Below are positions 21,985 to 47,268 of a stretch of 64,000 nucleotides of DNA, one piece after another (positions within the stretch are counted from its first letter, which is position 1; each line of letters opens with the position of its first letter). Source of the stretch: Argopecten irradians (Eukaryota > Mollusca > Bivalvia > Pectinida > Pectinidae). The notes below the pieces were generated by a model, which saw nothing but the letters and a program-made list of their open reading frames with translations, made no database searches and was not told the origin of the DNA. The position numbers were made by a program, and so were the translations under genes. The DNA lies in the NCBI RefSeq assembly GCF_041381155.1, contig NC_091139.1:10168383-10232382 (forward strand), given 5' to 3'.

Positions 21985-23570
21985 CTATAGTACTAAGTAA
22001 TGCTTCGCTGAAACAGATACAAACTATTTTGGCTAATATGTAAATTAACCGGTTTGTATGCATTCCATTCGCTTCATTAGAATCGATCAGATTTAATTTC
22101 AATCTCAAACAATTTTATTGAAAATGGCTAAAAGATTATACATCATATGCTACCTATTTACATATATGTCTTCTCCCTAAAAATACCATGCTGTCAACCT
22201 GTCAAGCTTATGGAGAAACGACTTAACTTTGAATGTTTTCCTGATTAAAGTAGTAAGCTAAAATTTAATCTACAGCAGTTTACCTTAAGCTTAGTTAAGA
22301 TGGGTGGAACTCTATACTGAATCACTCAGTGACAGTTAGCTTGTCGTTAGCGTGTCTCGTTACTGGTATATATTTTTTTCAACTTTGGGATAACCTTAAA
22401 GTGAATAGTCGGGCAAAGAAAACCAGTCTAAATGCGTTCATTGGCCTTCCAAAAGTTCTCACATATTAATACGACGGTCAAGTTCTGCTTAGTTTCCCAG
22501 TTCTGACCATTAAAGTAAAGAAAAGTTAAAATTGAAAGCAAGGCTGCGTGGAAATGTAACCACGGACATAGTGAGCCGGGAGGACGTTTTAGAATTTCCA
22601 TACTTTAAATTAATTTCTTCGTACGCAGACAGATTTTGACGAGAGATTTTATTTTTCCATTTCATAAGAAATTATACTGGATACATTCACACCATTTTCA
22701 CCGACTTTAGCCATCCTTGCCCGACTGTTCACTTTAAATTATTTCATCATAATTATTTTTCTGCATTATTTATCACAAAATATATAACTTACAATATTCT
22801 CTTTCATTCATTTAATGTTATTAAAGTTCATTCATGTCAGACACGTAATCTCAATATTGAGGAAATAAAGAATCTGCCTGTCTGTGTGTGTATATTGATC
22901 TGTTACAAAATAAATAAGTAAATACAAACAAACATGTAAAAACAAAACAACTGAGTTATGATACCTTAAATATAAAACAATATATGATGTGTTAATAAAT
23001 AATAAGGCTACAATGATCTCAGAATTATCAGGAGATGGACTGATAAATAGCAAGTAAACTTTGATTCTAGAACAAAAATGGAAGAAAAATGCGTCGATTG
23101 TCTATGTTCAAAGTCTTAAGGAGGGACTACAAGCATACTGAAGCATGCTGAGAACTTTTAAAAACCATCAAACCAAAACCCCAGGCAAGGCTATAAAGAT
23201 GAAGAAGAGAAGGTAACCAAAATGTCTTAGGCGTATCATGATCCCAAATTGTTTAAGTACAATGGCTGAACACTCAAAAGTTTTTGCTAAATTGCCAACA
23301 TTTTATGTATGCTGAAATTTGTGTCTATCAGTTCTTGCGAACGGTAAATTATACATATTTCACATCCTCTTGTCACGTGTATACACGTAATTTGTTCAGG
23401 CCTCTAAGGAAGTTTAACATATAAATATTTTGTGCTTAATAAGGAAAACCCTGCTACGATCAAGAACTTTTTAAGCAATTTTAATTCAGGTATTGTCGTC
23501 GTTTTTTTCTACAGGTAAGTTAACTTACACCAATTTGTCTGAAATGGTTTGTGGTATCAGAGATAAAACT
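21985..23570. other. Intergenic, no gene seen
   Basis: No open frame with splice context or domain. Composition resembles the introns of the receptor gene. Confidence 0.45.
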
Positions 23571-23574
23571 TAAC

Positions 23575-23797
23575 AGTTGAGTTAACTGTTCATTTGAAAG
23601 ATTGGGGCGTTGACTGCTACTATGATCATGACTACATAGCAGGTAGTGCTATGGATGAAGTCAGAGGTTTCTATTGCTCTAAAAAACAGCACCTTATAAA
23701 TAAAGCTAAGCTATCCTATCTCAATGTTTCGACTATTTGTGATGTGCTTTTAACTCATAGTGAACATCCCGATTTTTATGTTAGAGATTTAATGTAA
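23575..23797 (+). CDS. Candidate terminal exon, unknown protein
   Basis: An open frame of about 70 codons ends in TAA, preceded by a possible acceptor ('cttaacag'). The translation is not of low complexity and has a protein-like mix of residues: 'LKDWGVDCYYDHDYIAGSA', 'DEVRGFYCSKK', 'STICDVLLTHSEHPDFYV'. The 'DVLLTH' string faintly recalls metallophosphoesterase-type proteins, but no full motif is present and I do not assign a function. No partner exon was found. It may be a last exon, an exon relic or chance. Confidence 0.3.
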
Positions 23798-28269: not shown

Positions 28270-31200
28270 ATGGCAACTCGACTTGGTTTTTATGTTGTTA
28301 TTGCATGTTTTTACATCGACCTGTGTCTAGGGTAAGTGTACAGACTTTTTTGTTTATACAGCTTTTATTGCACATCCTTAGATGCTATCGAAATGAAAAA
28401 CTATATTTATATAAATGAAAACAGTTTCATAAGTTTATTATTTAATATACGTATAAATGTTAGATACCGAGATGTATGTACCAGCAGTAGATATTATAGT
28501 GTATTGTTAGATATAAAAACATGAAAGACCTACGATCCCTATCTTTGGGCATACGTAGAAGAATGGAAAAAAAGTTTTATAAATATCTGTAATGCTGAAA
28601 TGAATAACCTCTTTTTGCAGAAACACTCATGCGAACCTTATTTCATTGTTATGTCAATCACGAAATATTTTGCACAGGCTAAGTTAGTTTCCTTGATACA
28701 GGGTCCGCAACGTAAATAAATATTAATGACCAAAAAGTTGCGTCACTACATGTAGATAACTATCAAGACCGGATAACTTATAAGTTTTAACTGCAGATTA
28801 ATCTTTTAATCTTTTTATGATGATTTTGAGGATGTGTGGCTTTTTGTTTGCAGTAACTCTTGTTACTTGTATTCTCAAAGTGTGAAATACAGAACGGAAC
28901 ACGTCAAATCTGGCTGGTAAGAAACTCACTGAACTTAACCATTTTATTTTCATGGCATACAAATGTGTGCGTTATTTTGCGAGAAAGAACGCAAATTGAA
29001 TGTTTTTTCGTGAATAAATGTAAATGTTTCATGAGATATTATATACAAGTAGTATTATATACGGTTTGCAGGAGATAATCTGCACACGTATAGACTAATA
29101 CAGAAACAATTCCTAAGTCATTTTTTAGTCCCATATGAGGTGATTGAGAATTGAAAGCAAAACTTTAAGTGTTAAAAAAGAACTTCTATTTTATGTTGAT
29201 AGTACTATTTTGTTTTATAAAATCATTAATTGATAATTAAAGTAATGTTTAATGCAGTGTTGTATTTAAAGTATATCATTTTGAGATGGACTCTCTAAAG
29301 TAGATGTTTTCAAAAATACATGTCAGGAAAACACGACCGTATCATTTTGTTTTATAATTTAGTGTATATGAATGTACTTCTCTCCTCCGATTCAGGTAGA
29401 CCAACTTCTTTTCTTAATTTTGCGTTTTTATACTTAGGCTTTTATTGCGACGTTTTCTTGATTTTGTTGTTTCTAATTTATAGGTGGGGTAGAAAAACCG
29501 TTGTTCGAACGTATTATGTAAGGAATTCGCATTGTTGTGATGGCTACTACTATGCATCCTGTACTCCTCGTAAGTATTGGCAATACACTCCAGAATTGTT
29601 CACACGTCACGTACACATGCAGTAAATTATATAATCATTATTTTCTCCAATACTTGACAGGGTTATCCCGCGATTGCCAGGGAAAAGATAACTCTGTCTT
29701 TTACAGGGTAGGGAAATGACAGCTCACACGTGCTAGACAATGACGTGACGTCATCATTACATGCGGTGACTATTGTCGACGACGTCATTGATTTTGACGC
29801 ATTGCGGCATTCTTATGATGGTGGCGCTTCGGGAATGTTTCTATATAACTGTATTTTCATCATGTTTCGTTTAAGTATAGGAGAAAAAGATTCAAACATG
29901 AGCCTGTCAGGTGGACAGGGATATCTCAACCTTCGTGAAAGATTTTGGCCGTCAATCCTCGGCAAGCCTCGGGTTGACCAGCCAAAGTCTTTCACTTGGG
30001 TCGAGATATCACTGTCCACCTCACAGACCCATGTAAGATTATATTAATCTTACTTTGTACAAAATAAAAAAGATGAAAAATGAATTCCAGTAATGTTCGA
30101 CAATACCGTGTACTGCAAACAAGCTTGCGACATAGTTTCGTCCTATTTTACAGTGATTTTTCTTGATTTAAACATATATGGTTCTACTCGACATGTGTTT
30201 CATAATTGATTTTCCCGTTTAGAAATGGCCTAGAAAATACACGAAATTTAATCTCACGAAGGAATAAGAATATAAGTAAATAAATATATGTACTTTTCCT
30301 TAATTTTGAAGAAAACATCTGATAAAGTGTGACATATCATTTCGCTTAATAATAATGGAGTTCTCTGGAAATTCTTTGAGTTCTGTTAGACATAAGCCTT
30401 ACTAAGAACGTCTCGAAAACTCATGAGTTTCATAGGGAAGAGGCACAAAAAGTTAAGGGATCTGTAAGAAACACGTTTAAGAAATGTTGTATACCGCTTA
30501 TTAATTTTATCACTTCAATTTTTATAGCTGTCTGCAATCCTCCCTGTGTTGGTGGAAGATGCGTATCCCCTAACAGGTGTCAATGTGACCACGCACATAC
30601 TGGAAGCCATTGTCAGACAGGTAAAATGATGAATTGGTGTCATCCGGGTGTAAATTGTTAAAGTACAAACCACAGTGCAATCAATTTTAAGAAACAAAAA
30701 CGATATCAAGAAATTATTTAAATATCGAAACCACTGCATGAATTTTTCATTTACACCAAGCCTATGTGAATTTTTTTTTTGTAACCTAGCATAGGTGACC
30801 CACATTAAGCAGAAAAAAGTTCTACTACACGTGCAAATAGTCTCTATAATTCCTAGCTTTAGAGAAGCTGCAAGGCAAGTTATGTAGATTACATATAGAC
30901 AACCATAAATAGAGAATTTTACGTCAACAACAAATTTACGAGACAATATACAATGCCGGCACATGATCTTGTGCACCTAAGAGTTTCATAGCCGATAGAT
31001 AATTCGTTAAATATTTATTTATTGTTATATAATGGTGGCAGCAAGGAACAAGCATTTGTTTTTCAGTACCTTCCAAAAATAAATGGTATTTTTTCAGTTT
31101 ACCAAAAATAAACGAAAAACATTGACCTTACCCCATGTTGAAACTGGAAGTAAACACGGCACATGATCTTGCGTAGTACACTACAATCCAATTTTAATCA

Positions 31201-34200
31201 TATTATGATATTCAATTTATTTAGCTGACCATTCAAATTTCAATGAAGAAAAAAATAATTGAATTATAAATCACCTTGCAATTTTTAAAAATGTCAAATA
31301 AAAAAATGCTGGCGACTTTTTAAATCAGACAGCGATTTCCGCCATTCTTCAAATATCATCCCATTGTAACACGGCACGTCTGCATCTTAGACTAAAAACT
31401 GAGATTGTTTTAGAACTTACATTGCCATTCTATACTATATATGTCTGAAAAAGTTCGTTTCTTCATTAAAATCAGAGGAAATTACAAGTGTGTGGCGCGC
31501 AAGATCATGTTACTTTAGTGTATCAGTTATCCCGTATACGCAGAGATCGTAACTGTAGGTTAATATATTTTCTCATTCTACGTTCTAAATAATAAACAGT
31601 GTAATAGTAAGCATATATCAGTCACATCCCGTTTTTTATTAACAGATAACAGTTATCAAACTTATGATATTGCCTTTATGATTATGAACAGTGGACACTT
31701 ATATATCAGTGAGATAAGTTGATGGCAACTGTATGACGGATATATTTGTCGTTTATCATTTTTATCTTTTATCGTCAGGCTGTTTTTAATTTAAAATTTT
31801 GATTTGAAAAAAATAACATTGAATATTGTTGGGACAGTGATTCATTGTTGTCACTTAATTGTAAAAATGAATGTAATCGCGTGTGGATATTTTCGCGCAG
31901 ACAGCTTTCAAACAGTTCACAGTGTGATAGTTTAAATATTCATTGATCAAAATTTCTACAAGTTCGCACATAAATACATGAGGAGTTGTATAGACAAATT
32001 GTTACCTGACTCTCTATATAAATGTAAATGAAGTAATTTCGCATATTGACCGGTCAATAGTTTGACTGTTGACAGGGGCGGAACGTTTGCATGCGTTTAT
32101 TGTTGACATCGTAGTTAAATGTTGAAGTCATTAAATGTTGAAGTCATAAACACCGGCGTGCCCGATCGACCCAAATACCGGTATTCTTTCGGCGAAAGTC
32201 TTTCTCACAAGAAGCTCAGTGATAAGTTTGGAAACAGTTTATAGGGTTGGTCCCAACACCGAAGAAAGTGTTTTGACTGTTGACTGAAAAGGCATGAAAC
32301 AACTGTATAATGTCCACGCCGCGAATAATTCCATTTTTACATTATTTAACTTCTCGTTTTGGCAATTACAGTCAGTGGCCATAATACAGTACGCAAGTGG
32401 ATTTTTTTACTATATATTTTTAGTAATTTTAGATTTTTAAAAACTCCTCTCCAGAAATCAATTGAAAACGTTAAACATTCAAAGTTGACAACAAAGAAGC
32501 TAGGTACCAAGTGCTTATTTTAAAATAATGAAATGATCTTCCGTTGCAAAAGTTTTGAGCGATAACATCCAAACAACCTTTAATGACATCGCCATTTCCT
32601 TCTTTTTCTATTGTAAAATGGCGTCACAAAAATGACATAACTATAATTAAGATCGATTTCTCGATAAATATGACACGGAAAATATTTTAAATAATTTGTA
32701 AAGGATGCAAATTTAGTTCTTAGTCAGTGTATAAAATCTTGTTATGATGAAAAGCAGAATGACTTAAGTTATGACAATTCAAAATATATAAAATTACTAA
32801 AAATTACTAATGATATATTGCAAAATTTTTCCTTGCATACTGTATTATGGTCACTGTATATCAGAGACACACTTCAATGACAATGGTAAGAAGAAAACGT
32901 TCATTGGTGTCATTTGTATTATACATGTATATCGGATCTTAAATTAATGTTCATTTCATAAAATCTCATATGCAATGGACACGAATTTAAAATATTTTTT
33001 ATCAACTATAAAAACCTACCTTTCAAAGAGTCTCACGTCAAAATGTGTTACTAAAATCCAGAGGTGACCGCATTTTGTCCTACCGTCCTCGAAATCCTGC
33101 CGTCATGCTATATTTCCTGACGTCATTTTATTGTTTCTGTCTTGACATCACAGGGAATTTCCAGCCAGTAAAAATCGCTTCAGGTCATATTACACTAGTG
33201 ACACATGCACTGTATATCAAGCGGATTATGAGATAAAGATTCATCTGTAATTATTCTGTATATATTTGAATGTTCAACTACTTATGGAAAATATAATCGA
33301 CATATTTGTGTAACCTATAGCTTAACCTTTTACTTGTTAATAAATATATATAAGTTTCACAAAAAATAGAGCAAGGATTGTGATGAAAACTATGAGAAAC
33401 TGTCGTCGGGATGTAGTTATTCGGAAGCAAACCATATTGGTTAATGAATGTAAGATGCCAGTAATTTATTGAAGAACGTTAACTCGCTAACTTAACTCTC
33501 TGAAAATATAAGGATTGAAAATTGACTTATGACTAATGATTATTTCCGATGATAATGCATGGTTATAAAAATTATCCTCAAACACAAAAATATAATATGT
33601 ATCCCTTTAACATTTATACTGATATCTGCGTAATGTGAAAGGATAATAAGAAACCTGAAAGACTATCTACACAGCTGCACAGTGATTTTTAATGGACGTT
33701 GCAAAAGAAGCAGTATACAATTGGTAATACAAATTCCAATGTAATCAACGTTCCTTATTTTTCAGGAACTTAAATTTTCAATAGGTTATTAAAAGAGAAG
33801 TTTTTATTAATTTGTGCCTACTATGGAGAATTGTTGATAAAGTAGTATCCTTAAGCTTTAGAATACCGATAAAACCATTCCCACATATTTTATAAGATGA
33901 ATAAATATCTTCTGCTTCTTCTCAACTCTGTTCTATCAGAGTTACTTCCCTTCGCTTCATACTTTTCATCTCAAATCCAGGTAAATTAAAATTGAGTCTG
34001 AAATTCTCTCTGTTTACAGTTACGTGCTCACACTTGTATCCTTGCTTTCCTGGAACTTGTACCTTTCCACACAACTGTCACTGTCAGGCAGGTTTCTCAG
34101 ACAGCACATGCTTAACATGTAAGTATAGTATACATGGATTCAAGTAACAACAGTTACTGGCTATAAAATATTGCCTTGAAATACACTATTCTTTATAGTT

Positions 34201-37200
34201 TATTACATAGATTAACTTTAACTTTTGCTATAATACGTACACTTTATCATCCAATAATGTAAAGCCAGTAAGTGTCCTTGGGGGTCATCGCTTTCACCCT
34301 ACAGATGGTCATAAAATCCGTACTGTGAGAGATGAAGAAATAGTAGCTAGATCGAGGAATTTAGACTCGCTAAAATCTATTTTTACCATTTTAGGTTCAA
34401 ATTTTGAAAAGTTTGAGTTACGAAAATGATCGCTTATATGGCACTATAAAAGCATCTATAAGTAAACAAATTTTCGTGAATTTAGAATAAACCTTTAAAA
34501 ATTATTTCATATATATTGTTTTTGTCTGTTTGCTGTAGTGCAAAAAGACCAATCACCCACCATTCTTCGAGCCAGTGCCTACCTAATCAACAGAGAACGG
34601 ACAAGTGGTCAAATATTCGGCAAGTTGTTGGCGGATTCTACGTCACCAGACAGTGATTATGTAGATACCATCTGGGTGCTGAAGCACGATTTCAACATCA
34701 TCAACATTTACTTTGAATCAATATACAACGCTCCGGTACTACAAGGGGACGGTATTTATATCGGTTATCATAGCCTTGGCTTAGTCGACGCTAGGGCACA
34801 ATTGACATTGTCAAAAATTCAACAGCAAGGTAAGATTGACAAAAGATTTTAGTCATGGGATTTGTTCACGGAAGTTTTTTATTATATAAATTTTGAAATT
34901 GTTAGAGGAGAATATAAATGACTTTTCAACTTCTCATGTAATTTTCTTTTTCTATTTCCATATGGTGATAGTAGTTGCTATCTAAGATGACAACAGTTTA
35001 GGGAAGTACCATGACATTGTTGATAACTCATGTTGAGCATCTGAACACTTGATTTTCTAATAAAAAGAGATGGTGTATACTCACAAGCATTCAATAGTTA
35101 TGACCAAGTGTGACCAATCAATGTTAAGCAGTGTTTCCTTTTAAAAGATAACTGATCTATTTGTTTATTTTAAATTCATTCATCGTTAAGATACCATTCT
35201 AATCTAAATGTAAATTTGATTAAACATTGTTATCTAAGTTAAATAAAACAAAAAAAAACATGACAGCATAATAGGAAAGCAAAACAAGTAAAAGGGATGT
35301 AACTCTATGATCACAGTCCACTTATATTAAAAATTTGAAAGTAATAACTTCGTTTAGATAAACAATGTTTTGATTTTCTTGATATTACCTAAAATAAAAC
35401 TTAAAAAAAATTTAAATTGGTTCGTAGCATTGATTTTTATCTCATGTCATTTCCAGCAAAGTCGAATGATTCCAAACAATATTGATGATATAAAAATAAA
35501 TTGCATTGAAAACAATAATATTCATAACTGTTATATTAATTCCATACATTGTTAGAGTTATAATTTCCGTATATTGTTTTCGTATGAGTATACGTTTATC
35601 CTCACAGGATCGTCGACGACGTATAGGCATCAGAAGACCTACACCTGTCCGCAAAATCCAACTCCATCGTCCCCTCACAAGGATGTGTTAAAATGTAACA
35701 TAACGGACAATGACTTCGACTGGTTGTTAGAGAACGGCGATACGTAAGTTCGAACAATGATATAATATTCATTTAACAGAAATTAATTTCCCTTGTTTTT
35801 TTATAATTAATCGTACTTTCTGATTGACCAGATTCTTTTTACCAAGGACAGGTCCGAGAATGACGTAAAAATCCGACCTTATCATGAAGGCACAATAGAG
35901 ATATCGATGTTGCTAAAATATTCCTTTGGAAATCAATAGAAACATAAGTTTAAATATATTGTATTTGATCAAGTAGCTTTAAAAATATAAGCATTGATGT
36001 CACTAACGTTTAATTTCATCGGGTTATGAAATAGATTTTGTTTGCACTCATTCCCGATGAAATTAAAAAAATAATGATATCAATGCATAAACATATTTTT
36101 TTTCTAAATAGTACTTTGTTATTGTTCTGGAAGATAAATATATCATATAATATTTATCATTATTATACCTCAAGTGAGAATCCTGCATTCTGATTGGTCG
36201 AGGGATATTTGGTATTTTACACTATCACACGGCAGGTATCATTAGAACAATATGAAACAATAGACACGTTCATAACAACCCATAGCAACGGGTGATAGTG
36301 TATTTTTGACAGTGCAAAATATTAACCGCCCGACAGAAGCGCACTCGTTTCTTTTTTGTTGCCATCTTTGTTTTTTGAAGCACCGCTTCAAAGTTTATCT
36401 GGAGCTATTAAGTAATAGATTTGCCAAATTAGTCTGTTTATCAATACCCTTTTTTCACACGGAGAGTTTTCACATTAAGTACGGAGAGCTCCGTTTACAA
36501 ATTTCGCTTATCGTCAAAGCGCTATATGTTAGTATATTAATACCGTCGATGATTAGGTGAACGAAAGACATGCGATTACAAGCGTTTTCGTGACGTTGCT
36601 AATGTTGTAAAAAGACGACGGGACGAAGCCTAAATTTGTTGAGATTTACAAAAACGTTAATATTTTAACAAACTCAGAAGACAAGACAACAAGAATATTT
36701 CACTGAATGCTTGTTGGGAGTATCATTTTTCACAATATAACGGTAATAAGCGCTGCCGAGTACAGTATGGACGCTGATATGTTATTTTACTGTCGCCGGT
36801 AAGTTTTCGACTTTTGCAAATATAAGTAAAATATTTAAATAAATTGCAAATATTTGGAAACTAGTATTATTACTAGACTTTTGGTATAATAAATTGAATA
36901 CTACTTGCATTAGAGGATTACAGTGCCCAGTGTCACCCCTCGGAATAGCACTGTCACCCTCGGGTTCGCCTCGTGTGACAGTGATATCTTCGGGTTGACA
37001 AGTACTGTCACCCTCTAATGCAGGTAGTATTTATATATTATTGCATCAAACGACATATCGGATAGTTTTCTTTGTATAATCTCATCAGTATACTTGTCTA
37101 TCTACATATATATATGGCAATTTTCTACTTGTGGAACCAATCTTTACCGGCCAACGATGCTGCTGGTTACGGTGACATCCGGCATAGAAAGTTACTTATT

Positions 37201-40200
37201 ATACCAATACGTTTCAGTATGGTGGTTACGATATCAACAAAAAGTGGGGGATTCCGAGAGCTATTGTCTTTGGAAACGCACAGCCACTACAGTACTGATT
37301 ATTATGGAAACCAGACATCAACAAAACAGATGAAGTTTCTGTTTGACTATCATCCACCTTACCATTGTGTTGAGAAGAGAAATTGTTCTTCACACGAACA
37401 GCCGCTTATCATCAGCAACGACATCTCAAAGGTACGTTTGCAATTATGTACCCATGGCCGGGTGATGTAGCGGTTAAGCAATTCGCATTTCGCCAAGCCG
37501 TCTGGGGTCCGTTCCCAGGTAAGAACATGAAAAGACCAAGGGGTACCTTCCCCATCACGTGTCTTTTCTCTTGGCACGTCGGTTTCCTCATTAATTAAAA
37601 CTCCTTGCTACTACTAAAGCATCAGTGGTTTCGGCATTTATTTTGAAAACAAATGTAGGACAAAATGGCAAAGATGTGTTCATCTTTTGTTCCGTTCAAT
37701 TTCATATGAATCTAATTGTATTTTGTCCTTTACACGTTGAAATGTTCGCGGTTACTTAATTTCGAGTGTATTATCCGTATAATCGTTTGTTTCCTACAAC
37801 CTGTCATTATTGTATTTATTTATTCTTGTTCGGATGCCAACATGCAATCATCATTTATCGCCCAAGATAACGTTCCAACCAAGTTCTCGTAAATTAACAA
37901 AATTGATCCGAAGGACTTACTTATCCGCCTTTATCATTTAATTGTATGGTGGACTTCACAAAATATAGTTATAACGCCGTAGGGAAAATTTCGCGATCGA
38001 TCAAACTTCGCGTAATTAGCGTAAATTTACCCCTTGCGTTTTTTATGTATACAGTATTTGCATTTACAGGGACCAATCAATATATCCTGGGCTGGATGGA
38101 GAGATCTGTTGTCGGGTGTCTACGTCTATAATATCCAGGTATATCCTTTAAAACCAGACCGAACTGGCGATCTAACGGAGGAGAACCCAAACAGTCCCAT
38201 CTACGTTCTAACCAACGCAACTCTACCGTCTAACCCGACATACCTACCACATTCACCTGGGATGTACTCTATACTGCTAGAGGTCGGCGACAAAGCGAAT
38301 AACACCAAATACAGCCGCAGGTTGCTGTTGTTTGACAATGAATCAAACGTTACCATGACAACCACAAATCCTATAAAGGTCGAAGGCGCAGTAGGTGAAG
38401 TGACCAACCAATGGATCAGCAGTCTTTATGATCCAATCGTGGTCAATTGGCAAGGTCATTTTCAAAATGCAGATCACGAAAAGTATCATCTTCTGAACGC
38501 AGTTGCTACTTTCAAGCCACAAACAATAATGCACTTTCGGCATAAGAACGTGTCCTCTGCTTTGGATGACAATGAAGGTAAGCGTACCATAAAGAAAATT
38601 GCCAACAAACATGGCATCACCAAAGTAGAAATAACTCACCGCCTTAAGGACCATGGAGGACTTCAACCTTGGGCGAATGTGGATGGCTTTCTTGAAGAAC
38701 GTACCAGTCTTAACGTGTCTCGTTTGGACGGTGATACCATTATAATACCACTGAAAGCCTATGACGCGATGGAAAACGTCGCAGAAGACTTCGTATTATT
38801 GAATGTAGATTCCACGCCACCAACGGTGGAGACTCCAACGCTGATACCAAATATCAAGAATGGAACATTTGCCTTCTCGAGTAGGTAAGTGGTATACAAT
38901 TGTACATTTCTTGCTTTGATAATACATTCTTCACTTACTAAGCGTATATATCTCCTGTTATGACTTTACATTTCCTCTATTGCCATTTTGTTACTTCATT
39001 AGATTAAATGTTCTGACATATGATGAAGATAGTGGTATAACCTCGCTCAAGTGGAGGATCATGCCGAACGACTCCGCAGAAATATTTCATCAAGGAGAGT
39101 CGGAAGGAAACAAGACACAGGTAAACAACATCTATACATTGGGCTTTCGAATAAATAAAAGCCTTATGACTTGAAAGTCAATGAAAAGTAAGACTTCACT
39201 ATTAAACACAATACAAGGAACTCAATAGTGATTAACTTAATATCAATTGATTTAAACTGGTAAATTAGTCAGCTACTGGAATTTCTATAAAATGAATGTA
39301 GTTAAATATTTCATGGGAATTTAAGTTAAGTCACTGTAATTAAATATTTCACTGGACTTGACCCGACTGATAGAACTAAAGATTTAAGAATATAAAGCAA
39401 AATATTTAACGCTCCTAACTGAAATTATGCCAGTTCTGACGTTGCAAATACTACAACGTATGGACTATAACTGTGCAATAAACGAAATGATAAGTAATGA
39501 AATAAAAAGCAGCTCTGTAACAAAACATTAAAACGAAATGGACGCAAAGATCGCTTCATGAGAAGAGAAGCAAACGTCTATATTATATTCAATAAACAAG
39601 TTGTGTTAATGAAATTCACGATGAATAGAGAACTACATATTAAAAAATATTTACAGATTCATCCCTCTAAGGAAGATGGAGATTGCAGTAGCGCTGGAGG
39701 CTGTTTCTACTATCTCCATCAGTTCGAAATCAACAACTGCTGGCTGAAGGTACACAAAGATAAATTAGCGACACAAGTCATCGACATTCACATCGATGTC
39801 TACAACCTAGCGATGCTCAACTCGTCAGCGAGTACCGAGGTAGAGTAATTACTTCATTGACCAAAATATTACACTTTATTACACCCTTGGGAATATCCTC
39901 AGTCTCAGGTAAAAATCGTTTATTTAACCCTGGATATATAGATAGCATGTTGTAAACGTCTTATGTAGGTCAAGGAACGAAACCATAGAATTTGTATGAT
40001 ACCGATATACCATCTCCATGGTTTATCAAGTTACGTACAATGTATACAGAAGTACACACGTGGTTGAACATCAACATTGATTGGTCACAATGTCCGCCTA
40101 CAGCCTAGGTGGAACCAGTCATAGAAGTATATTTCGTCACCTAGTTGTGTATGATGCTTCAAACGTAATACATTTAATGTATATTTTCAGATAACTCACC

Positions 40201-43200
40201 TACCTTCATTTGATGGTTTAGAGGAATGTAAGTATTACTCATCCCCATTTTAGATTTGTTCCATAAAAATAAAAAAATATGTTAGAATAGTGTCAGCAGG
40301 ACAGGTAGCTCTCAATATCTTAGATGATATCTCTTTAAATTCTTGATAAAAAGTTATTATTCTCTATGAGAAAGGCAGTGTTTGCAATTCCTTTAAAGAC
40401 AAGTGAGAGCAATCAATATTTCTATTATTTGGAAAAATCTTTAAACATCATGAACCACTTGAAATTTATTTTGCAAAGACCATTATTCTTGTATTTGGCA
40501 TATACTATACACTTGTACAATATGCAACGTTTAAGTGATCATAGTATAATATGTTTCATTGCTAGTTGATATAGACGTCGTTTTAAAAAATTGTCTTTCG
40601 TGAAGTTTAATATATACCAATATTGGACTGCTAATCGCTATTTAGACTTTGGACCATTGGACCTAAAGGTAACAGGAACTTCGTCAGACAGTGCCAACGT
40701 CCAGTGGAGTTTCGGACCGAGCTGTTACGACCGAACAGACATACTTCTGGTGTACAATGCCTCGGGCAGCGAAACACAGATAATGCATCCCCAAAAAGAC
40801 TCTAATTACTACACCCTTGGAAATCTTGATGCTGAAACTGCATACACTGCCTACATGGTATTTGAATACGGAACTGAGAAAAGTGATCCAATACAAATCT
40901 CATTTACGACAGGTACGTACAGCGTGAAAAGTCGACAATTATGGTAAGATGGAAGTACAGCTTCCAGTAAAAAAAACTCTGAAGTGTAAAATTTCGCATT
41001 TTCATTCCTAACGACGTTTTCACGGCGATTTAATTTCACGATTTACAGTTATTTAATTAAAATGTTTTGTTTTCTTCCAAATCGGACTTTCCATTTTTTT
41101 CATACCAGTATGAATATAAAAATCTGAGAATGGCGCGAAACCACGACGTTATCGTGAAGTCACAACAGAGCCATTGACGTTGCGTATTGATTCAGAAAAA
41201 AATCTCTTGAAAACTGTCTAGAATTATACATTAAAACGTATTTCATTTTTTAAAATAGATTATGAAATTACTTATAAGCTTTGATGTCACTATTTGTTAA
41301 TGTCATCGGGTATTTAACAAATTGTTGTTTGCAAACTGTGTGAATCCGCGAATTCTCGCAAACATTTTGTTATACTCCGTTCAAATAAAAAATAGCGACA
41401 TCAATGCTTAAATGGTTCTATTTTTTAAAATTCATAGTTTTCGCAGCGATTGATTTTCGTGATTTCTTATCGCCTGCCTATATACGAACAAGTTAATCCC
41501 ACGCGAAAACATCATAACATTTAATGCATTACAATGATGCTTTGTTGTTTTAGGGGCCCAAGAAGGGTTGTCTGTTGGGCTTATAGCAGGGATTTCTTCA
41601 GGTTTGTGAATAATTACTCCAGCGTTCGTGATATAATGTAAATATATTACATCACATTTCAAATTTAAAAAAAATATTAAAACAACGTCTCCATGAACTT
41701 ATTTCTATGCCAGCAAAATCTGAAAAAATAACATTGCTATCAGCAAAAGATAATCAATGAGTAATTTATACGGTGTGAAAATGAATATCGATGTATTTGT
41801 TCGCTTATTGGTTCAGAACTTCCAAACCATATGCCAGTATTATAATTTGTAGTGTGGAAATAGTATTTTCTTATACTATATGTTATTGCAATAAAATGAT
41901 AAAGTACAATGATCAAAATTATGGTATTCCGTCTTTGCATATTACAGAGTTAGCTCCCTTGCGGTAGGTATCGATTGTTACGTCATAATTTCACGTCATT
42001 TTCTCCGAAATGTATGACGTTACGCTCGCAAAAACATGACGTCACAATCAATAACTACCCGCAAGTGCAGATAACTCTGTAATATTCAAATCCGGAACAC
42101 TAAATTATGTTTTCTTGTGTTGCTGTTCCAGTAAGCGTGATACTTGTGGCTGTAATAATCGCCGTTTTAGTACTATGGCGAACTGGGAAGCTAAATCGCT
42201 ACAAGGAATCTATATACGGGCATATAGGCCTACAAAGACGGACGGTCAGGCTTAGGAAATCCAACAGTTATTCTGACTCAAAGACAATTGAACAAGCAAA
42301 CGACAGAAAATCCTTTGCGGTAATTATTTATATCAATTATCGATGGTGTAATATAGTATATTATTCCGTCTTTGTATACTTCAAAGTTATCTGCCCTGTG
42401 GGTATGTATTTATTGTGACGTCATGTGTTTGTGAGCGTAACGCCATACGTTAATGACGTGATATTTGTTTACATAAAATTACGTCACAATGGCTACCTAC
42501 CCCCAAGTGAGGTAACTCTGTAATATGCAAAGACCGAATAGCTAACTCTAAGTTACGATATTATGATACATTTGAAAAAGTCATACAAAGAATTACTATC
42601 AATTTATCATTTTAATCATTTAGTTAATAAATATTCTTTTATTGGCCTCTATTTTATATTAGATAATGTTCTTAGTTGAAGTGGAGTTTTCGGACCATCA
42701 CTATTTTAATATGTCATTGTTGTGTTAACACGACCTTGATGAATTTGCAATAATGACGTTTTACTATTTTGGGCTATTATATTTGATTTTACCAGGTTCG
42801 TAAACCCTATTGATGAGTTATAACCGATAAACATATCTATGTTTAGAGAATATATGTATATGTGAGAGAATGAATCACAAGCTGTGAGAAGAGAAGAAGG
42901 CATCGTTAGTATAACAGATCAATGTTTTTTTTATGAGCTCAATGTGAACAATGAATCATTTTTAGAACTTAGCCTATTCTGACGTCGGCGATGAGGACGT
43001 GTACCTGTATGGCCAGATGGTGTTTGAGGAGGATCAAGCATGGAAAGTTCGGCACGATCAGGTCTCCCTAGTTGAGAAGATGACTGTAGGACGGTTCGCT
43101 GACATCTTTAAGGCTTCGCAAAAATCCAAAAAGAACAATAGAAGCACCGTTATCGCAAAGGTTCTAAAAGGTTTGTATGTAATATTGGGCTGGTCAGCAA

Positions 43201-46200
43201 TATTTTAAGATATCAAGCTCTGAAACGGTATTACATCTTAATTTAGATAATAGATGTTTAGTTACTACTCTGGATATAATGTATTCCTAAATTGAAGCAA
43301 ATGATTCATCATGCATCCCTACTTGCAACAAGATTCCAATTATGATTTCAACCAACTTATTTGAATCTGGATAAGAATTAAAGGATTTCTTCTAATCATA
43401 AACTAGTCTTAATGAAAATGCGTTATGCAAATTAAATATTACGAACATATTTATCATCACAATATTTCATTCTACCATTCTGCCTTCTTGATGTCTTCTC
43501 TTCGCTATGCTGCATCTGACTATATCAGGATATTTACTGAAAAAAACAAAGGACTGAGTATATAAATAAGATACAAATAATAGTAAAAACAGTTATTGAT
43601 AAATAATGAATAACATCAGGACAGCTAACGAGTTACAGCATCTGACTTAGGTTCAATCTACTTACTGAAGTTACAATTTTGAAAATGTTTCCATTCCAGA
43701 GTCGCAACAGAAATAGACGAAATGGTTATGACCGCCAAGATAAACTTCTTTGCAACAAAGGTCGGATCTCACCCCAACGTCGTTCAGTTTGTTGGCGCTG
43801 TTCTTGACAACGAACATTGTAGGTATTTTTCAAATATGTTATCAATTTGTTTCCTGTTTCAGAATCATTTTATTCATTTTTGTGTGCTTTCGTTCTGCCG
43901 ATAATTACACAATTATATTTCAGGTTTTGCAAAACTAAACTTAATAGTATTATTCAGGGCTATGGTGAATTCGCCAATGCCTTCCTCAAAAAAACGCGTA
44001 TGGTCTATTTTCACTTTCGCAATAAGATTTAGATTTTTTCAGATTTTCTCTTCGATACTGTTTTGATACGCTGTGAAAACTAGTATACTTCCTCGCTTAA
44101 GAAGTGGCTGCATATGGCTAAATTTACAGTAGACAACGGATGATATCTCCTTCTTTCATTGTCTGTTCAGTGGGTCCCTTCATGTTGCTGGAGTTCTGTG
44201 AGACAGGGGTAATGAGGACGTGGCTACAGAATCAGAAGACGAAAGTAACCGACAGTATCGTAGATACCTTGTTCCGAATTACTTTCGACATTGCAAGAGG
44301 AATGGAGTATCTCGCCTCCAACAAGGTTTTACTGCAACTCTGAATTTTTTTCTATCGGAAACTGTTAACGTACTTATCTTATTTTGGCACTCTTTAATAT
44401 TGGAGTAAAATTATATTGAACATGATGGCGCAATGGTTTGTGACTTCGCGCAATCAACAAAATAAATATATGAAAGATATACAGGGAATACAATTGGCAC
44501 ATTCTTATTTTAAGTATTTCTGGCTCTAAAACCGCTAAAATATAAATACCGCTAAATTATGTAAATTTACAGTACGTATGGACAAACGTGATTCGAAATA
44601 TCTGACTGTGTCATTATAGATTAGAGGAAACATATTCGATCATGGTTTTTACATAGATCCCGAGTTATTATTCTCCATCTATCCACAGTTTTGGTTTTTG
44701 AGTACAGTAAGTGGAGACGTATGATCGATGTTTGTAAAACATTTTGCCTTTTAATGCATGCGATGTGACCATGACATATGGAGAATACAATTTGTTGAAA
44801 TGAAATGAAAGCACTAAAAACACTAAACATTATCATGTATTGTAAGACATAGTATCCGGGACATTAAAAAGCCTACGAATAATATAATTGTTTTTTAATG
44901 ATTTTTTAAAGATTATACACCGCCACCTCGCTGCTAGGAATATTCTTTTGACATCGTCACTGGAAGCCAAAGTAGCAGGATTCGGTCCCACCAGAGAAAC
45001 CGAACAGGATCAGGACAAGGGAAAGGTTTGCTCTTTGCCATTTAATATGGAAGCTTAATTTAGATATATGTATTGTTAATATAAGAACAAACATTAGTAA
45101 TGCAGAAACGTTGAAACTGGAAACAATTTTTAAATCCTTTATTTGTGTAAACAATTTCTAAATTCCACATTATACACATAAAACGTTAACAGGGGAGACT
45201 GTTTGATAACATTGATTGTTAAATATATTCATGTTCTCAAGGGAAAGGTAGCGATTAAGTGGATGGCTCCGGAATGCATGACCACCGTGAAGGACGCCAC
45301 CTTACAAAGCGACGTCTGGTCCTATGGGATAGTCCTGTGGGAAATATTCTCTATGGGTAAGATAATTGGTGTCACTGAATGTACTGGAAAGTCGTGATAT
45401 ATATAATCGTCTATCTTTGTAAGGTGATATCACACATGAAAACCTTAAAAGTGATATCGCCTTTTTGCATCGGTGATGACACTAATTCGAATTTGCTAAA
45501 AAGTGATATTTTGATGCTCCATATGTCTTTGATAAATGTTTATCCTGGGTCAAGCGCATTCCATTGAATGGGATTAAAAAATAAATGACGATATTTTCCG
45601 CAATATTTACAATTATATTAGAGACACAATTAAACTCATAAACATTAAATGAATTTCGTTGCAATTCATTAAAAGTTTATGAGTTTAATTGACATCTTCA
45701 ATGCTCCACCGCCGACAGAGCATAAATGATACTCATCATTTAATATTAAACAATAATTTGTGTTAAATCGTGTATATACATGCCTAATTAACACAAAAAA
45801 TAACAGAAAATAATTTATTTCGTCTTTGGTGCATGCACAATCATTACTTCAATCTATATAAGATATAGTGTCATGGAATTTTTTCGGAATGCACTTAATT
45901 ATTTTTCATATTTTTAACTTGAAGTAAAATTAGAAGCTCAAACTTTTTAATGGTAGTAATAGTGTACAGTAAGTAGCTTTTGTAACTAAAGAAAAATACA
46001 AAATCGTCTGCTCCCGTTTTTGATAGTGAAAAATACCATTTGTCAGCGTGGTGGAGCATCTTTAATTATTCTCACGAACAAACATATTTGACTAATTTCG
46101 TTTCTATAACGTTGCTCGGTGTTAACTTAATATATGTACATGTAATATCTTTTTAAAGCAAAATCAATCACGATAAATTTGTTTCAAGTATAAAAACTAA

Positions 46201-47268
46201 TGTATTAATATTTTGGACTATATATAAAGGGGCGTAACTCATTGAAGATCTTGGTATTCTGAACAGCATATGTTTATAATAAACCGGAAAAAATAACTTC
46301 AATTTTTTACCAAAGACTTTCTGTTTTATAAATAAGATATTTTTCATTAAGTTCAAATGTTGATTAAATAATATGTTAATGTTTATAATGTATGTATAAC
46401 ATTATTTAAACCAAACGCAGGAAACAAAGAACTAATTATTTATCTCGTAGCATCAAAATATGTTATATTGTTCATTGGCATTTATTCAAATCAAAATCGC
46501 ATTTTCACCTATTCGGGCATTACATATACATTTTAATAGGTGATAACACTTATTTATATTCGAATCGGCGATAAATGCGTCCTATAGTTTCAAAGGTTTG
46601 GTAATTCGTTTTTCTTTTAAGGTGAAACGCCATATCCTGGATTAAGGAGCACGGAAGTGGCCACGAAGGTATCCAGTGGGTACCGCATGAGTCGTCCGGA
46701 GTTCTGTGCTGACATGTAAGTTTAGTATTAGGGCTAGATGTCTAATTGTTATTCGGTATATATCTTAAATTCTGAAATGCGATACATGTACCTATGCTGT
46801 TTTCTTGTTAGTTCAAAACTTTAAGGAAAACTACTTATTGAGTATTTTGCATGTGAGTTAACTGTAAATACATCCTTTGTAATCGTTTTGCTTGTCAAAT
46901 GTAGTAGACCTGTCTATAAAGACCACCCGCATAATAGAGGGAACTCGGTCTTTCTAACCAGGTGGCCTTTATGCATAGTTTGAATAGTGTTGTAAATGGT
47001 CTTTTGGACCTTATCAAGCAGGTGATTTTCATATGTACACGTATGTGGTCACTAAGGCAAGTTTTATAATTGTATAATGATAAGCAATCAGTTGATATTC
47101 TGTCCTACTTACATGTTTTACCTTAATATGTACAGGCATTACGAGTTAATGAAGAAATGCTGGAAGGATAAACAGTCATCACGTCCGAAATTCTCCGCCA
47201 TTGTACAGGAGATCAGTAGTACTTTCAGCTCCAGCACTGACGATTATTATTACTACGCCACTCAGTGA
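28270..47268 (+). CDS. EMI-EGF-FN3 receptor with tyrosine pseudokinase domain
   Basis: I joined 22 exons: 28270-28331, 28854-28916, 29484-29569, 30528-30620, 34020-34118, 34539-34829, 35608-35743, 37089-37431, 38070-38884, 39003-39120, 39657-39839, 40191-40227, 40646-40912, 41554-41601, 42132-42319, 42966-43170, 43702-43818, 44171-44325, 44912-45025, 45242-45356, 46622-46715, 47136-47268. All junctions are GT-AG, phases match throughout, and the total is 3762 nt (1253 residues). Domain order: signal peptide 1-21; EMI-like 22-70; two six-cysteine EGF-like domains 72-134; a large ectodomain ~135-775 with many N-glycosylation sequons; FN3-like ~780-864; transmembrane helix ~872-896; juxtamembrane with '[14 protein letters not shown]'; kinase-like domain ~975-1235; tail ending 'DDYYYYATQ'. 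The N-terminal architecture recalls Draper/MEGF-type receptors, but the cytoplasmic part is of the tyrosine kinase class. The ligand is unknown. Signalling must be kinase-independent or by partner kinases (inference). The least certain boundary is the start of exon 8. Confidence 0.9.
29904..30026. repeat. Palindromic MITE in intron 3
   Basis: 'ctgtcaggtggacagggata' and 'gatatcactgtccacctcacag' form the ends. The interior arms include 'gtgaaagattttggc' and 'gccaaagtctttcac' in inverted positions. It lies between exons 3 and 4 of the receptor. Confidence 0.8.
32369..32856. repeat. Terminal-inverted-repeat element in intron 5 (non-autonomous DNA transposon)
   Basis: The left terminus 'cagtggccataatacagta' faces the right terminus 'tactgtattatggtcactg', about 480 bp apart, with the inversion continuing inward ('tagtaattttag' / 'ctaaaaattacta'). 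TA dinucleotides flank the ends, as in Tc1/mariner-type insertions. No coding capacity. It lies in the intron between the two EGF exons. Confidence 0.75.
32930..33240 (+). repeat. Dispersed repeat family F, copy 1 (in intron)
   Basis: Matches 50600-51035 in the same orientation: 'tgttcatttcataaaatctc', 'tctcacgtcaaa.tgtgtt', 'ctcgaaatcc', 'ttcctgacgtcattttattg', 'aggtcatattacactagtga'. No coding features. Confidence 0.8.
35805..36090 (+). repeat. Dispersed repeat family D, copy 2 (in intron 7)
   Basis: It shares 'tttctgattg', 'tataagcattgatgtcacta' and 'tttcatcgggttatgaaata' with the copies at 11085-11820 and 41060-41412. This copy lacks the family A MITE. Confidence 0.75.
36165..37030 (+). 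repeat. Repeat family E copy 2 with palindromic end, abutting exon 8
   Basis: The left part matches 14600-14760. The right part (36905-37030) is a hairpin in which 'actacttgcattagaggatt' faces 'ccctctaatgcaggtagt', with inner 'cactgtcaccctcggg' repeats. The repeat ends only about 60 bases before the exon 8 acceptor of the receptor gene, so the acceptor environment may be partly repeat-derived. Confidence 0.65.
37447..37605 (+). repeat. tRNA-derived SINE of a second type, 15 bases after exon 8
   Basis: A-box-like 'ggccgggtgatgtagcggtt' and B-box-like 'gtctggggtccgttcccagg' lie at tRNA spacing. The body ends in 'ggcacgtcggtttcctcatt'. The core differs from the 10237 family. It inserted just inside intron 8. 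Confidence 0.65.
38070..40227 (+). other. Receptor ectodomain exons 9-12, including an 815-nt exon and a 37-nt microexon
   Basis: Exon 9 (272 codons) has two beta-rich segments. The first starts '[20 protein letters not shown]', a pattern common in FN3/Ig-like ectodomain repeats of marine invertebrates; the second runs to '[16 protein letters not shown]'. Sequons such as NIS, NAT, NVS and NGT indicate glycosylation outside the cell. Exon 11 carries a cysteine-bearing segment ('[17 protein letters not shown]'). Exon 12 is only 37 nt ('[12 protein letters not shown]') and is needed to change phase 0 to phase 1 before the FN3 exon, which supports its reality. Confidence 0.75.
41060..41412 (+). 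repeat. Dispersed repeat family D, copy 3 (in intron 13)
   Basis: It shares 'ctgagaatggcgcga', 'cgacgttatcgtgaa', 'cattgacgttgcgtattgat' and 'gacatcaatgctta' with the other two copies. Confidence 0.75.
41926..42096. repeat. Palindromic MITE family C, copy 1, just upstream of exon 15
   Basis: The ends are 'ttccgtctttgcatattaca' and its near complement ending 'tgtaatattcaaatccggaa'. Inner arms are rich in 'tgacgt' ('tgttacgtcat', 'atgacgtcaca'). It ends 35 bases before the exon 15 acceptor. Confidence 0.85.
42363..42540. repeat. Palindromic MITE family C, copy 2, just downstream of exon 15
   Basis: The ends are 'attccgtctttgtatac' and 'gtaatatgcaaagaccgaat', with the same 'gtgacgtcat' / 'ttacgtcacaat' inner arms as copy 1. 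It begins about 43 bases after exon 15. Confidence 0.85.
45615..45690. repeat. Hairpin beside MITE A copy 3
   Basis: 'caattaaactcataaac' faces 'gtttatgagtttaattg' around a loop containing 'gaatttcgttgcaattc'. It lies in intron 20 immediately before the family A MITE. Confidence 0.75.
45701..46060 (-). repeat. MITE family A, copy 3 (in intron 20)
   Basis: It runs from 'atgctccaccgccgacagag' to 'gtcagcgtggtggagcatc', with the full interior shared with 3911-4210 and 11308-11663. It lies between the APE/DxW exon and the next kinase exon. Confidence 0.9.
46900..47060. repeat. Probable dispersed repeat in intron 21
   Basis: Short internal echoes of 'aagaccacc' / 'ggtcttt' / 'ggtggccttta' alternate in both orientations. 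No second copy was found in the window, so the identification is tentative. Confidence 0.3.

Follow-up and report, generated by a model that had tools for sequence, protein, structure and literature searches.

A 64,000-nucleotide stretch of the bay scallop (Argopecten irradians) genome, hereafter the window (C6:10168383-10232382 of the 845.8-Mb assembly, C6 having 48,145,685 bases), carries on its plus strand a receptor gene (28270-47268) that, judged by its sequence, is a member of a large, lineage-wide family of receptor pseudokinases, comprising bivalves and gastropods among the named relatives. The protein model has 1210 aa in 22 exons, which were linked via splice signals and then corrected against P0001, a 1,047-residue protein from a 4,414-nt contig; a preliminary description of the same DNA had given 1253 residues. 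That description had also presented a single dead receptor, of which the dead, kinase-type receptor stands and the singularity does not.

Both catalytic aspartates are replaced in exon 19 of the window gene, where codon 44924-44926 is CAC, giving His at the HRD-Asp place, and codon 44978-44980 is GGA, giving Gly at the DFG-Asp place, with the exon reading AGFGPT. The HRH and GFG motifs first reported, with both aspartates gone, are thus borne out, while a third change had been overlooked, namely Lys at the alpha-C Glu place (43737-43739, positioned by alignment with relatives). The beta-3 Lys (43158-43160), the catalytic-loop Asn (44939-44941), APE and DxW are all kept, as the preliminary description had stated for the beta-3 Lys, AARN, APE and DxW. 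P0001 likewise carries HRH and GFG and is 97% identical across the kinase region. The domain is of the tyrosine kinase type (Pfam PF07714, E 1.3e-69; LAARN and KWMAPE motifs), and the fold of P0001 matches FGFR1 and c-KIT. These receptor tyrosine kinase (RTK)-type fold matches, together with purifying selection (see below), agree with the earlier claim of a kinase fold kept without its catalytic residues, and we infer that phosphotransfer activity is absent. A base-calling slip as the source of HRH/GFG was rejected, as the 114 bases of exon 19 are identical in the window and two further copies from this genome, and the losses are common to relatives.

A kinase-region search gave 3,598 matches, of which we took the best 120 and dropped four multi-kinase rows (P0008, P0012, P0100, P0117), leaving 116. 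Relatives with an intact HRD or DFG had been named at the outset as evidence to look for against a pseudokinase; neither catalytic Asp occurs in any of these 116 top-ranked close relatives. The HRD-Asp place holds Arg in 98, Lys in 11 and His in 7, and the DFG-Asp place Gly in 115 and Arg in one (P0087). The alpha-C Glu place is Lys in 116/116, and the beta-3 Lys, the Asn, the APE-Glu and the DxW-Asp are each present in all 116. The named relatives are bivalves and gastropods, a taxonomic span that applies to named rows, 12 of the 116 having no name and two a name without an organism. Searching with only the ectodomain of P0009 resulted in 21 matches including P0009, and all 17 kinase-bearing ones carry all three changes (both Asp lost, alpha-C Lys). 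The other four gave no kinase match, being P0122, P0124, P0125 and an EGF protein from a catfish that is unrelated; among all 208 collected proteins, four had no kinase match.

A search with a snail member, limited to the best 120 of 1,515 matches, extended beyond the family into active RTKs. Re-scoring against the window kinase put the lowest-scoring family row at 189 bits and the top active row at 146 bits, a gap that was narrower with the snail query (173 versus 161.5 bits). This query added the bivalve Solemya (P0158), unreadable at GFG. After masking of the three diagnostic columns, the tree placed 145 kinases, that of the window among them, in one clade (support 0.953), with 0 of 48 other kinases inside; P0008, P0012, P0200, P0158, P0159, P0160 and P0128 were left out by name, and P0150, P0163, P0176, P0189 and P0207 because they were less than 60% complete. 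P0151 and P0152, Mytilus kinases with HCD and DFG that are named or resemble JAK, lie outside the clade. The ancestral residue at the HRD-Asp place was reconstructed as Arg, with 3 changes on the tree, so HRH would be a scallop variant of an ancestral HRR. By the same gene tree, catalysis was probably lost once, in or before the bivalve-gastropod common ancestor. One-off inactivation of the window gene was discarded, given the same losses in 116/116 relatives and the single masked-column clade. A ranking bias concealing active relatives was rejected as well, since the three residues cost 7.8 and 9.3 bits; much more distant active relatives may exist. In Mytilus, P0108, P0112, P0115, P0116, P0148, P0157 and P0159 combine the same pseudokinase with von Willebrand A (PF00092) and EGF modules; the dead kinase has therefore been joined to other ectodomains.

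To characterize the pseudo-active site, we compared 148 family rows with 50 active rows retaining both aspartates, the latter mostly vertebrate CSF1R/PDGFR/KIT types and hence a narrow control. Family rows were chosen by R, K or H at the HRD-Asp place, which makes 148/148 at that place true by definition; the non-circular counts are the 116 picked by search rank, the 17 picked by ectodomain and the masked-column tree. The beta-3 Lys is present in 147/147 aligned family rows and the catalytic-loop Asn in 148/148. Within the glycine loop, the first Gly is kept in 4 family rows, the second in 146 (2 gaps) and the third in 1, with Ala in its place in 144, and the loop tip is basic (R, K or H) in 136. 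GFG is followed by Pro in 146/148 family rows versus Leu in 49/50 active rows, and the activation-loop Tyr, present in 49/50 active rows, is missing in 144 of the family. Activation loops of the family contain 29% Asp/Glu versus 10% in active rows, corresponding to mean net charges of -2.9 and +1.1, respectively. A C-terminal YY run occurs in 130/148 family rows and a YxYG-like juxtamembrane motif in 109/148. On these counts, the losses are orderly and define a fixed, charge-reversed pseudo-active site across the family.

The same replacements recur in tandem within the bay scallop genome. Beside the window, on the opposite strand, lies an array (C6:10234900-10538500, L065-L071) with HRH or HCH in the catalytic loop. 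Ten catalytic-exon copies were read, namely the window, a downstream copy, contig C1285 and seven stretches at 10.23-10.54 Mb: the HRD-Asp place is His in all ten (HRH in 8, HCH in 2), and the DFG-Asp place is Gly in all ten, with L066, frame-broken there, reading GLG. As a control, seven other motif-pattern loci in the genome (L001, L002, L003, L006, L007, L026, L030) read H-x-D and DFG. Exons 16-22 of the window and downstream copies are 98-100% identical per exon, whereas the downstream copy's ectodomain exon 9 has 49% protein identity to P0001; by this comparison, the two copies share the kinase half, or it has been converted between them, and they differ in the ectodomain. Their introns differ by 0.7% (24/3,360), near the difference of their exons. 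On another chromosome, C4:52229678-52233439 holds family ectodomain pieces, among them an FN3 exon that shares 92% identity with P0001. The 746-aa A. irradians protein P0122 is a family ectodomain without a kinase, for which the C4 pieces are only a candidate source locus.

The ratio of nonsynonymous to synonymous substitution rates (dN/dS), a check proposed for the kinase exons in the preliminary description, was determined on five of them (16-20) in ten pairs of tandem copies. In the four pairs with estimable dS it ranged from 0.06 to 0.19, with 0.08 (dS 0.47) and 0.19 (dS 0.27) in two of these; in the remaining six, dS was saturated and dN was 0.11-0.20. Compared with P0002 from Mizuhopecten, the kinase is 84% conserved versus 69% for the ectodomain. 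The substitution pattern indicates that the kinase domain is under purifying selection and is unlike what a decaying gene with a dead site would show.

How might such a receptor act? By analogy with HER3, we give roughly even weight to the proposal that the family consists of receptor pseudokinases signalling in trans, as partner or platform. Ligand binding would put the single-pass pseudokinase receptor beside a catalytically active tyrosine kinase, for which the dead domain would serve as allosteric partner and platform. The conserved tyrosines of the juxtamembrane YxYG and of the C-terminal YYY cluster would then be phosphorylated in trans and recruit adaptors in the HER3 manner, with partner, docking and ligand all presumed. 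For the product of the window gene, the scaffold or allosteric receptor role suggested in the preliminary description is plausible.

Several observations weigh against this picture. Of the 109 family rows having YxYG, only 64 have an NxxY upstream of it. HER3 keeps DFG and the GXGXXG loop, the mollusc family neither, making the analogy loose (PMC13259870; here and below, comparisons with this paper and PMC2639636 refer to their available parts). Two of the dN/dS estimates come from weak pairs: window versus downstream copy (0.07) contains only 5 changes and alone shows little because the intron difference is close to that of the exons, and a second pair (0.06) has a near-saturated dS of 2.4. 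The dead domain could also have another role, for example in a decoy. Finally, the reading frame of the window copy is irregular in exon 17. Compared with the sister copy 65 kb downstream and with contig C1285, this exon lacks one base; splicing at the usual acceptor (43700) leads to a stop at residue 974, whereas an AG two bases further (43702) preserves the frame. The claim that the frame and all splice sites are intact is not confirmed. The missing base would be compatible with an error in the assembly, with a broken allele or with a shifted acceptor. Frame breaks also occur in exon 22 of C1285 and the catalytic exon of L066, which may be assembly indel errors or decaying copies. That the window copy is itself a decaying pseudogene or broken allele draws on just these defects and is possible, though we doubt it: the remaining frame and splice signals are orderly, P0001 is intact and differs from the final model in only 12 of 1,047 aligned columns, and the shortage is explained equally well by the alternative acceptor or by an indel in the assembly. 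Such decay would leave the family-level finding untouched.

Other readings concern what the altered site does. The basic pseudo-active site might hold Mg-free ATP or another anion, with occupancy altering a conformation read by a partner. In line with this, the beta-3 Lys, the alpha-C Lys, the Arg of HRR and often the glycine-loop tip provide three to four basic sites that are invariant or nearly so, GC-C, which has HGR and whose glycine loop is degraded, is listed as ATP-binding, and CASK is active with GFG; against it, the loss of two of three loop glycines is linked to loss of ATP binding, and the GFG-bearing VRK3 cannot bind ATP (PMC2639636), so that we regard an anion-sensing switch as rather doubtful. 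The acidic activation loop might instead plug the basic cleft until freed by ligand binding or partner contact, as its Asp/Glu content and net charge opposite the basic site residues would suggest. The narrow, mostly vertebrate control rows, the low predicted local distance difference test scores of the loop (pLDDT blocks of 59-60) and the fact that acidic loops might equally mimic phosphorylation render this lock distinctly unlikely. More broadly, and still as an unlikely scenario, basic cleft and acidic loop could form a metal-free, non-catalytic switch of a new kind in a large, tandemly expanding set of mollusc receptors that join fast-changing ectodomains to the one strongly preserved pseudokinase, perhaps serving recognition or immunity. 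A dominant-negative or decoy receptor, binding ligand without signalling, recalls the ectodomain-only relatives P0122, P0124 and P0125 among the 21 ectodomain matches, of which P0124 is labelled partial and the others are maybe incomplete models; it appears improbable, as a kinase more conserved than the ectodomain (P0002) and under purifying selection would be unexpected if inactivity sufficed. Cryptic catalysis without the usual residues, for which the retained beta-3 Lys and catalytic-loop Asn and the activity of CASK despite GFG could be cited, is hardly credible: CASK retains the HRD Asp (PMC2639636), which is absent from every clade member, and the alpha-C Glu is charge-reversed as well.

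All 22 exons of the model lie on the plus strand. Exons 1-5 are without transcript support, as P0001 begins in exon 6. The exons of P0001 cover ~12.6 kb in the window, and because its 4,414-nt source contig is shorter than this span, a spliced transcript is the simplest reading of that contig. Exon 1 (28270-28331) encodes a putative signal-peptide-like start and exons 2-3 (28854-28916, 29484-29569) a Cys-rich N-terminal module. An EMI domain, which defines EMI-domain proteins of the MEGF10/PEAR1/Draper type, had been assigned to the ectodomain; Pfam comparison of the first and of the final protein model, with E values up to 1 allowed, gave no EMI match for either. Exons 4-5 (30528-30620, 34020-34118) encode two EGF-like modules with matches to EGF_TEN, EGF_PEAR1L (E 0.014) and EGF_DL_JAG, all below the Pfam cut-offs. 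Exons 6-11 (34539-34829, 35608-35743, 37218-37431, 38070-38884, 39003-39120, 39657-39839) form a beta-rich ectodomain portion in the P0001-fitted model and by the fold of P0122. A membrane-proximal FN3-like module follows in exons 12-13 (40191-40227, 40646-40912; fn3 E 0.0012, below cut-off). In the window protein itself, the EGF and FN3 modules of the preliminary description correspond to sub-threshold matches, whereas the relatives P0009 and P0002, though not P0010, pass the fn3 cut-off. Exons 14-15 (41554-41601, 42132-42319) encode the juxtamembrane region and a single putative transmembrane segment, a hydrophobic stretch from residue 838 with a predicted helix (665-690) at the matching place in P0001.

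The kinase half begins in exon 16 (42966-43170) with NLAYSD (42966), VYLYGQ (42999), the degenerate glycine loop TVGRFADI (43083) and the beta-3 Lys. Exon 17 (43702-43818, placed by the model and sister-copy comparison) holds the alpha-C helix, exon 18 (44171-44325) the hinge to alpha-E, and exon 19 (44912-45025) the HRHLAARN catalytic loop, GFG and the acidic activation loop. WMAPE (45260) and SDVWS (45308) lie in exon 20 (45242-45356), the C-lobe in exon 21 (46622-46715), and its end, the C-terminal tyrosine cluster DDYYYYATQ (47239) and the stop in exon 22 (47136-47268). A pair of related palindromic elements (41920-42100, 42357-42540), whose inverted arms measure 32 nt and 63 nt, flank the transmembrane exon and resemble miniature inverted-repeat elements. 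Elsewhere in the window, a 75-residue open frame (23567-23797) has a sub-threshold RAD51D_N match (E 0.018), possibly by chance.

With one dead receptor architecture found in both bivalves and gastropods and repeated in a tandem array, its catalytic acids swapped for near-invariant residues, nature provides replicates for asking what a pseudo-active site is selected for. Mollusc proteins named FGFR, KIT, Tie, CSK or VEGFR in databases include probably inactive kinases, which would bear on name-based work; the names FGFR, KIT, Tie-1, c-src and VEGFR1 occur on P0002, P0013, P0066, P0068, P0108, P0110, P0113, P0135 and P0160. A literature search, incomplete in its coverage of likely sources, found no description of a mollusc pseudokinase receptor family. 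The available text of an oyster kinome paper counts 40 receptor tyrosine kinases and does not use the word pseudokinase (PMC4883820), and that of a holozoan tyrosine kinome paper uses neither 'mollus' nor 'lophotrochozoa' (PMC8662651).

Among known kinases, FGFR3 and VEGFR2 keep HRD and DFG in our alignment rows, unlike the HRH and GFG of the window gene. FGFR, KIT, VEGFR and Tie receptors generally retain both motifs and have different ectodomains, that of Tie being Ig-EGF-FN3. EphA10 and EphB6 have an ephrin-binding domain and a SAM domain; with E values up to 1 allowed, the window protein gave no such Pfam match, an absence of match only. The receptor GC-C includes a guanylyl cyclase, and its kinase-homology domain is not a tyrosine kinase domain of the LAARN type. 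This kinase-homology domain resembles the mollusc family in the basic HRD-Asp residue (HGR) and the degraded glycine loop, but keeps DFG; GFG itself is found in CASK and VRK3 (PMC2639636, Table 1). The eight human receptor tyrosine pseudokinases are each differently altered, and none has a basic HRD-Asp residue (PMC13259870, Table 2). EphA10 shares GFG, the lost HRD Asp (HRG) and the FN3 modules of Eph ectodomains, yet it keeps the alpha-C Glu and glycine loop and lacks the beta-3 Lys (VAVH) and loop Asn, the reverse of the mollusc family (PMC13259870). EphB6 and STYK1 are similar in having Arg at the alpha-C Glu place and RLG or GLG for DFG, respectively, but EphB6 has HRS and no beta-3 Lys, STYK1 keeps HKD, and the HRD-Asp place is basic in neither (PMC13259870). 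HER3, with its trans-signalling model, is likewise a receptor pseudokinase with an altered HRD and retained beta-3 Lys and loop Asn, but differs in its HRN, intact DFG and ectodomain (PMC13259870). Each change in the mollusc receptors thus has a precedent, and their combination appears unique among the kinases compared in the tables of PMC13259870 and PMC2639636.
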